From positions 1 through 37,008 of the forward strand of contig CAADGS010000154.1 in assembly GCA_900696615.1 (NCBI GenBank): DNA of 37,008 nt, read 5' to 3'. A model generated the notes under the pieces. That model made no database searches, was not told the origin of the DNA, and saw only the letters and a program-made list of their open reading frames with translations. The stretch's first letter is position 1. The number at the start of each line of letters is the position of its first letter. This document shows positions 33,490 through 33,592 of the stretch, piece after piece. The DNA comes from an uncultured beta proteobacterium (lineage in GTDB: Bacteria; Pseudomonadota; Gammaproteobacteria; Burkholderiales; Nitrosomonadaceae). The translations under genes and the position numbers were made by a program.

Positions 33490-33592
33490 CGATCTTGATC
33501 GCTTCCCCTGTCTTCCCTCCCTGAGACAGGGCCTTAAGTAACATTAAGGCAGCTCCCCCCGGTTTTACTCCCCTTTAACCGGGGGTTTTTTA
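33490..33592 (+). ncRNA. Candidate small RNA with three hairpins and intrinsic terminator
   Basis: Between hemB and engB (both minus) the plus strand carries three consecutive perfect hairpins. A: CCCTGTCT (33506-33513) with AGACAGGG (33524-33531). B: GCCTTAA (33531-33537) with TTAAGGC (33544-33550). C: CCCCCGGTT (33556-33564) with AACCGGGGG (33577-33585), followed by six T. Loops A and C are C-rich (TCCCTCCC and CTCCCC), complementary to Shine-Dalgarno sequences. No plus-strand gene follows for over 3 kb, so this looks like a free-standing transcript of about 100 nt. The promoter is unclear; TATTCT at 33472-33477 is a possible -10. It is not a family I can name. Confidence 0.6.
33556..33591 (+). 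terminator. Strong Rho-independent terminator
   Basis: The 9-bp stem CCCCCGGTT/AACCGGGGG with a 12-base loop is followed directly by six T on the plus strand. It ends the candidate small RNA described above. Confidence 0.85.

Follow-up and report, generated by a model that had tools for sequence, protein, structure and literature searches.

Between two genes transcribed from the minus strand of a Nitrosomonadaceae contig stands a short array of hairpins on the plus strand, which raises the question of what this locus encodes and how its product might act. In the original prediction, made for the 37,008-nucleotide stretch of DNA analysed here as a whole (the window), these hairpins were read as an unannotated RNA without a named family, able to pair with Shine-Dalgarno sequences and ending at a T run with no plus-strand gene to terminate.

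An RF02837 (anti-hemB) RNA between hemB and engB

Reading of the sequence and minimum-energy folding bear out the predicted architecture: three successive stems of 8, 7 and 9 bp occupy positions 33507-33585 of the plus strand, with C-rich loops on stems A and C, and are followed by T6 (Table 1). The flanking minus-strand genes can now be named by profile matches as hemB and engB/ysxC, and no plus-strand gene indeed lies just upstream of the RNA. The fold of 33480-33595 has a minimum energy of -41.8 kcal/mol vs -27.5 (sd 3.44) in dinucleotide shuffles (z -4.16), and 0 of 200 shuffles fold as well as the native RNA. No tRNA was found at 32000-37008.

Table 1. Features of the hemB-engB intergenic region and its flanking genes (positions in the window)
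Feature	Position	Strand	Details	Basis
hemB, porphobilinogen synthase	32416-33420	-	Divergent from the RNA	NCBIfam NF006762, 499.2 bits, cut-off 297
-35 element, sigma-E (RpoE/AlgU) type	33453-33459	+	GGAACTT	Reading; 11 of 11 score jointly with the -10 element
-10 element	33477-33481	+	TCTTA, 17 nt past the -35 element	
Weak fourth hairpin	33487-33506	+	5' of hairpins A-C	Fold of 33480-33595
Predicted transcript	33488-33592	+	About 105 nt	Inferred from promoter and terminator
Rfam RF02837 (anti-hemB) match	33504-33593	+	Whole model, 1-81	63.4 bits, gathering score 49.5, E 1e-12 for the window
Stem A	33507-33514 / 33523-33530	+	8 bp, last pair U-G, loop CCCUCCCU	Fold
Hairpin B	33531-33537 / 33544-33550	+	7 bp, loop GUAACA, not C-rich	Fold
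Stem C	33556-33564 / 33577-33585	+	9 bp, loop UUACUCCCCUUU	Fold
Intrinsic terminator	33556-33591	+	Hairpin C and T6 (33586-33591)	Fold and terminator scan
engB/ysxC, ribosome-biogenesis GTPase	33782-34375	-	Convergent with the RNA	NCBIfam TIGR03598, 241.6 bits, cut-off 124.45

The RNA does have a name. Its score exceeds the gathering score of Rfam family RF02837, anti-hemB, the sole Rfam match at gathering level in the 37-kb window, so that it belongs to a family already known, as the Nitrosomonadaceae-type member; the original designation as unannotated does not hold. In an all-Rfam search of the RNA with E values up to 10, RF02837 alone matches strongly, with weak matches to LhrC, NsiR1, preQ1-II, GadY and IsrM, and at the same threshold the region does not match RF01719 (ErsA), RF02232 (sX13) or RF02278. 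The 50-bit cut-off of the ErsA model is not reached by the window region, nor is the 50-bit cut-off of the sX13 model, which has 0 matches in the host genome. A plasmid search returned no match. The host genome contains a single copy of the RNA, both by RF02837 and by our own model R2, which was built from 19 sequences, mainly engB-side loci and including the window RNA (an earlier model, R1, caught the terminator alone and was set aside). Among 61 genomes, namely that of the host and those of 60 relatives, an RF02837 match at E <= 0.001 is present in 53 and one above the curated cut-off in 44.

RF02837 ('Burkholderia RNA 7'), described from Burkholderia cenocepacia as ncS04, has the same three hairpins and the same loop A as the window RNA. 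According to Table 1 of PMC5688073 ncS04 measures 105 nt by dRNA-seq and 3'RACE, with a Northern panel, which equals the predicted length of the window RNA. The terminator loop sets the window RNA apart from the family model, in that the window RNA contains the C-rich CUCCCC and the RF02837 consensus a short U loop. Anti-hemB is also listed in PMC3521395 and turns up in PMC6515984. Among the matches listed for the Nitrosomonas small RNA literature, no title was related.

Conservation of structure and loops

For the analysis of conservation, 104 matches (102 distinct) were aligned to R2, comprising 55 Burkholderiales rows and 49 others from 40 loci that were chosen for looking positive, a few weak rows included (one at 21 bits). 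In this alignment, whose fitting to the structure favours pairing statistics, standard pairs fill 93.7% of the pair cells, two-sided changes are found among the 102 distinct sequences in 25 of 25 model pairs (A 7/7, B 8/8, C 10/10), and the covariation score is 0.506, as opposed to 0.155 in shuffles and 0.035-0.107 with the partners slid. When 53 Burkholderiales elements are aligned simply by MAFFT, RNAalifold keeps only six terminator pairs, four of them with two-sided changes, and misses the first stem because loop length puts that stem out of register. The original prediction had hinged on compensatory changes in stems A-C and would have failed had stems A and B, as distinct from the terminator, not been conserved; these stems are conserved, with two-sided changes throughout, and the structure of the RNA is under selection.

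The loops behave differently from one another. Information content per column is 1.62 bits in loop 1 (consensus tCCTCCCT) vs 1.04 in its stem, and 0.77 vs 1.10 for loop 3. The CTCCC core of loop 1 is present in 53 of the 55 Burkholderiales rows and 42 of the 49 other rows, and CCCC or TCCC in loop 3 in 51/55 and 39/49, respectively, so that both C-rich loops are kept in most rows; CCC in loop 2 occurs in only 8/55 Burkholderiales rows but in 45/49 others. Variable stems combined with fixed C-rich loops are the pattern that would be expected of an RNA acting through loop pairing. Loop A, CCCUCCCU, is the complement of the Shine-Dalgarno sequence AGGGAGGG, in line with the proposal that loops A and C could pair with such sequences, and these conserved complementary loops render the predicted role as a post-transcriptional repressor likely.

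A sigma-E type promoter

Upstream of the RNA lies GGAACTT-N17-TCTTA, which has the form of a promoter of the sigma-E type. From its position the transcript would start near 33488 (placed 6-8 nt past the -10 element, with the end within the T run) and measure about 105 nt. Neither this promoter nor the linkage to engB and polA discussed below had been recognized in the earlier reading of the window. Counted at a score of at least 9 of 11 and at the right distance, with expectations from dinucleotide shuffles, the motif precedes the RNA in 51 of 54 loci from Burkholderiales relatives (window included; 2.2 expected), in 37 of 54 engB-convergent loci of other families (1.2 expected) and in 40 of 77 named loci among the matches listed (1.4 expected), the named loci being 80 of at least 118 matching stretches, retrieved with an exact search pattern that favours one sequence type. 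Left out before counting were L040, L079 and L098 (too little upstream sequence), L086 (a Rhodobacteraceae chance match) and L056-L062 (weak RF02837 matches with neither hemB nor engB found).

Thus defined, the motif distinguishes the window RNA from 37 of the 77 named RF02837 members among the matches listed. Of these 37 loci, again among the matches listed, 26 belong to genera that we take to be Comamonadaceae (e.g., Variovorax, Hydrogenophaga, Ramlibacter). The C-rich terminator motif is absent from 31 of the 37 named loci without the promoter vs 5 of the 40 with it (among the matches listed), and shared ancestry may lie behind the joint absence. The Comamonadaceae-type loci (within L063-L142) lack the sigma-E motif and mostly also the C-rich terminator loop, which suggests that this group has exchanged its promoter and perhaps taken on another role.

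The features of a sigma-E-dependent sRNA, an RpoE homologue and a promoter of the matching type, are both present in the case of the window: the host genome encodes an RpoE homologue (322 bits, cut-off 236.15), as do 39 of 41 genomes above the cut-off. The pattern GAAC[TC][AT]-N16/17-TCT precedes rpoE in 21 of 29 loci (29 of 30 examined; 0.2 expected), a pattern that was narrowed after the broader score had given no clear excess on those same sequences (a score of at least 9 in 4 of 26 loci, with 12% per shuffle, not clearly above chance). The host's own rpoE is preceded by the variant GAACTA-N17-TCA, which the strict pattern misses. Spacers at the sRNA and rpoE promoters are not consistently equal: of 20 loci (19 genomes), 12 have 17 nt in each promoter. 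As to individual genomes, one Burkholderiales relative (G045) has neither an RF02837 match nor an RpoE above the cut-off (best E 7e-14), a weak hint only; G008, G014 and G037 have RpoE without an RF02837 match, and G017 has RF02837 together with an interrupted rpoE match.

Published data from B. cenocepacia bear on this regulation. In Table 2 of PMC5688073, ncS04 changes significantly in 0 of 7 conditions, and the text of that study describes 20-min exposures, including SDS membrane stress and H2O2, in which the tested sRNAs were largely not induced; a word search of the same text found no mention of rpoE. The lack of induction by SDS and other stresses speaks against sigma-E control in that species.

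Genomic context: hemB, engB and polA

As in the window, hemB and engB adjoin the RNA in most Burkholderiales loci searched: hemB is divergent upstream, within 500 nt, in 48 of 55 loci, and engB is convergent downstream in 48 of 55. Among the matches listed, hemB is divergent within 600 nt in 56 of the 80 named loci. A further observation, likewise among the matches listed, is that 19 of these 80 loci (L086 included, some near contig ends) lie beside neither engB nor hemB.

The situation in other families was approached from both sides. A genome-wide RF02837 search, made independently of engB, was compared with the engB places in 43 genomes of other families: the RF02837 match is no more than 500 nt from engB in 34, in 31 of them convergent on the engB 3' side, and away from engB in 9. 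These 43 are the genomes with both EngB and RF02837 matches among the matches listed, six genomes where RF02837 was located but a true EngB was lacking having been left out. The engB survey covered 109 loci of the class, one genome per family, from 139 non-own genomes with an EngB match (30 were left out by choice as paralogue-level, weak, split or at a contig edge). R2 matches at E <= 1e-4 in 59 of these 109 loci (43/93 outside training) and not in 50. In 54 of the 59 the RNA is convergent with engB, at a median gap of 12 nt, and polA points into the gap in 32 of these 54 vs 9 of the other 55 loci. In the roughly 1.5 kb searched beyond engB, hemB was matched in 0/109 loci. RNAs that match RF02837 or R2 thus stand beside engB, and often polA, without hemB, so that outside Burkholderiales engB is the constant neighbour and hemB a local one. 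The name anti-hemB misleads.

The window locus is itself not placed between polA and engB; hemB stands where polA would be. The hemB start at 33420 has no visible Shine-Dalgarno sequence, and hemB may in fact start at an ATG further inside the gene (codon 12; 33387-33420), which would lengthen the leader.

Relationship to ErsA, sX13 and other small RNAs

R2, which scores the window RNA at 60.4 bits, also finds three sX13 loci (40, 39 and 33 bits) and a Pseudomonas-type ErsA (26.5 bits), none of which was in its training. In 20 engB-side loci picked for looking positive, 35 of 37 Rfam matches (E up to 1) are to anti-hemB, sX13, ErsA, ar7 or ar14 and overlap the R2 matches; 0 of the 37 reach the gathering score, which RF02837 does reach in other engB-side loci. 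The sX13 and anti-hemB models fall on the same bases in 3 (G231, G142, G294) of the 15 genomes with an sX13-model match. As neither the ErsA nor the sX13 model matches the window RNA even with E values up to 10, the connection is an indirect one, by way of intermediates.

ErsA (RF01719, Pseudomon-1) lies behind polA in 3/3 Pseudomonas-type genomes, with engB convergent in two of them. Upstream of the ErsA of one such genome (121 bits to RF01719) is TGAACTT-N17-TCATA, of the sigma-E type as in the window, and two more genomes of the same family have polA, the RNA and convergent engB, with motifs scoring 8 and 9 of 11. Like the window RNA, ErsA has a C-rich terminator loop, whereas its first hairpin has diverged. 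Transcription of ErsA depends on AlgU/sigma22, the sigma-E homologue, and its gene sits in the polA-engB gap (PMC5819304, PMC8575079); the RNA is described as acting on oprD with Hfq (PMC7264166). Xanthomonas sX13 (RF02232) possesses three stems with C-rich loops and lies behind polA in 3/3 loci above the cut-off. Its loop 2 is C-rich, in contrast to loop B of the window RNA, which leaves the latter with two of the three apical C-rich loops, and unlike the window RNA it lacks the sigma-E motif in 3/3 loci. The C-rich loops of sX13 are reported to repress mRNAs with G-rich motifs near their starts, and sX13 is published as Hfq-independent (PMC3771888), whereas anti-hemB of B. cenocepacia is cited as Hfq-bound (PMC5688073). 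We consider the window RNA likely to be homologous to ErsA and sX13. The RF02837 family is already known, as is the link of sX13, Spot 42 and ar7 by place, their shared polA position having been noted by the sX13 authors (PMC3771888); a search of one open-access library found no paper that mentions any two of ErsA (also as Pseudomon-1), sX13 and anti-hemB, which is weak evidence that this link is new.

Several other candidates were compared. In E. coli, Spot 42 (RF00021) has the same place and orientation, in the order polA, spf and then convergent engB/yihA. We rejected it as the same RNA: only the place is common, spf has no R2 match and its sequence lacks these C-rich loops. RF00021 has 0 matches in the host genome and is above its cut-off in 0 of 369 genomes of the class, with one weak match. 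Spot 42 is repressed by cAMP-CRP. Among Betaproteobacteria, the Neisseria NmsR siblings and the Burkholderia RF02278 double-hairpin RNAs are held, in the accounts of PMC5362039 and PMC5688073, to occlude ribosome-binding sites by means of unpaired CU-rich stretches; the NmsRs were rejected as the same RNA by their locus between dsbB and lrp and their sigma-70 type promoters, and so was the sigma-E-induced 74-nt RNA of N. meningitidis, which is placed beside dnaE, not engB or hemB, in PMC3240639. R2 matches with E values of 1e-5 to 1e-3 in seven genomes of the same phylum outside the class were taken as background: polA and engB are absent from 7/7 loci examined (of 8 matches), so weak scores alone prove nothing. 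Weak matches to the alphaproteobacterial ar14 model (30-39 bits) fall on the same bases at L188 1337-1444, L242 1366-1466, L198 2332-2445 and L248 191-320, a weak sign of either convergence or very distant kinship.

Proposed function and alternative explanations

The reading that we favour, and hold to be fairly probable, is that of a trans-acting RF02837 RNA of about 105 nt, driven by sigma-E and blocking Shine-Dalgarno sequences with its C-rich loops, most likely the Burkholderiales branch of an engB-side C-loop family that has mostly sigma-E type promoters, often lies between polA and engB, extends across Gammaproteobacteria in the GTDB sense and includes ErsA and sX13. Family membership, structure, loop conservation, promoter motif, synteny and the presence of an RpoE homologue are computed here, and we infer transcription, sigma-E dependence, use of Hfq, targets and direction of regulation in the host organism. 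Under this scheme, envelope stress would free RpoE, which would transcribe the RNA from its own promoter as far as its own terminator; the loops CCCUCCCU (hairpin A) and ACUCCCC (terminator hairpin) would base-pair with several mRNAs at their G-rich Shine-Dalgarno regions, and translation would stop, probably with the participation of Hfq. Translation block via C-rich loops is modelled on sX13 and ErsA, and if ErsA is a guide, outer-membrane proteins may be among the targets. With a 6-nt complement in only 1 of 48 hemB leaders, hemB is unlikely as a loop target.

A different role is implied by the family name: the RNA could be a cis-antisense regulator that pairs with a long hemB 5' leader and controls haem synthesis. 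The divergent hemB of most Burkholderiales (48/55) and named (56/80, among the matches listed) loci would suit such a role, as would the distance of about 70 nt between the RNA start and the hemB start, since a hemB transcript beginning further up would overlap the RNA. In the window, however, the RNA lies clear of the hemB coding region, the RNAs of other families adjoin engB and often polA with hemB in 0/109 engB loci (about 1.5 kb searched), only 1/48 hemB leaders contains a loop complement of at least 6 nt near the start, and it is loop 1 that is the most conserved part of the RNA; we regard antisense control as improbable. That the hairpins are a terminator region without a regulatory role, lying between convergent transcription units amid decayed sequence, we hardly credit at all. 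A GC-rich terminator hairpin about 190 nt past the engB stop codon fits that idea, but covariation is seen in stems A and B, the promoter is kept, and the T run, being on the strand convergent with engB, ends plus-strand transcripts, with no plus-strand gene just upstream.

More weight is due to the possibility, still an unlikely one in our estimation, that only RF02837 is a real family and that the likeness to ErsA, sX13 and the polA-engB-side RNAs is convergence, hairpins with C-rich loops and a terminator having been recruited independently in several lineages. Spot 42 holds the same place, yet without an R2 match and with RF00021 above its cut-off in 0/369 class genomes; unlinked C-rich RNAs, such as alphaproteobacterial ar14 and Listeria LhrC, also score weakly; R2 finds its out-of-class matches (E 1e-5 to 1e-3, seven genomes) with polA or engB in 0/7 loci; and the sX13 model falls on RF02837 bases in only 3/15 genomes. 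Against convergence, dozens of families show agreement in place, strand, sigma-E type promoter, hairpin order and loop sequences all at once, and G231, G142 and G294 provide intermediates scored by the anti-hemB and sX13 models on the same bases.

A bolder version of the favoured reading, to which we would give even weight for and against, makes anti-hemB, ErsA, sX13 and many unannotated RNAs orthologous. Their common ancestor would be one ancient sigma-E-driven envelope-stress gene next to engB (and polA), whose RNA blocks Shine-Dalgarno sequences by as many as three C-rich loops and which has been handed down through Gammaproteobacteria, the former Betaproteobacteria among them; the lineage of the window would have lost the C-run of loop 2 and the Comamonadaceae type the sigma-E promoter and the terminator-loop motif, with Spot 42 perhaps a descendant rebuilt in place. 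RF02837 is an orphan in the literature found, with a neighbour-derived name and no known regulator or targets. Now that it can be given a promoter type, a likely sigma factor and likely relatives whose action is known, it becomes open to test, and what has been learned from ErsA and sX13 could, provided that the link holds, carry over to nitrifiers and other environmental bacteria.

Some engB-side loci contain more than one such RNA: L336 (G231) and L341 (G339), both also with polA, have four R2 matches each in tandem near engB, and L189 (G166) has two, possibly sibling RNAs. In G191, a c-di-GMP-I riboswitch (L315 705-789; L227 2037-2121) lies about 450 nt from the engB-side RNA.
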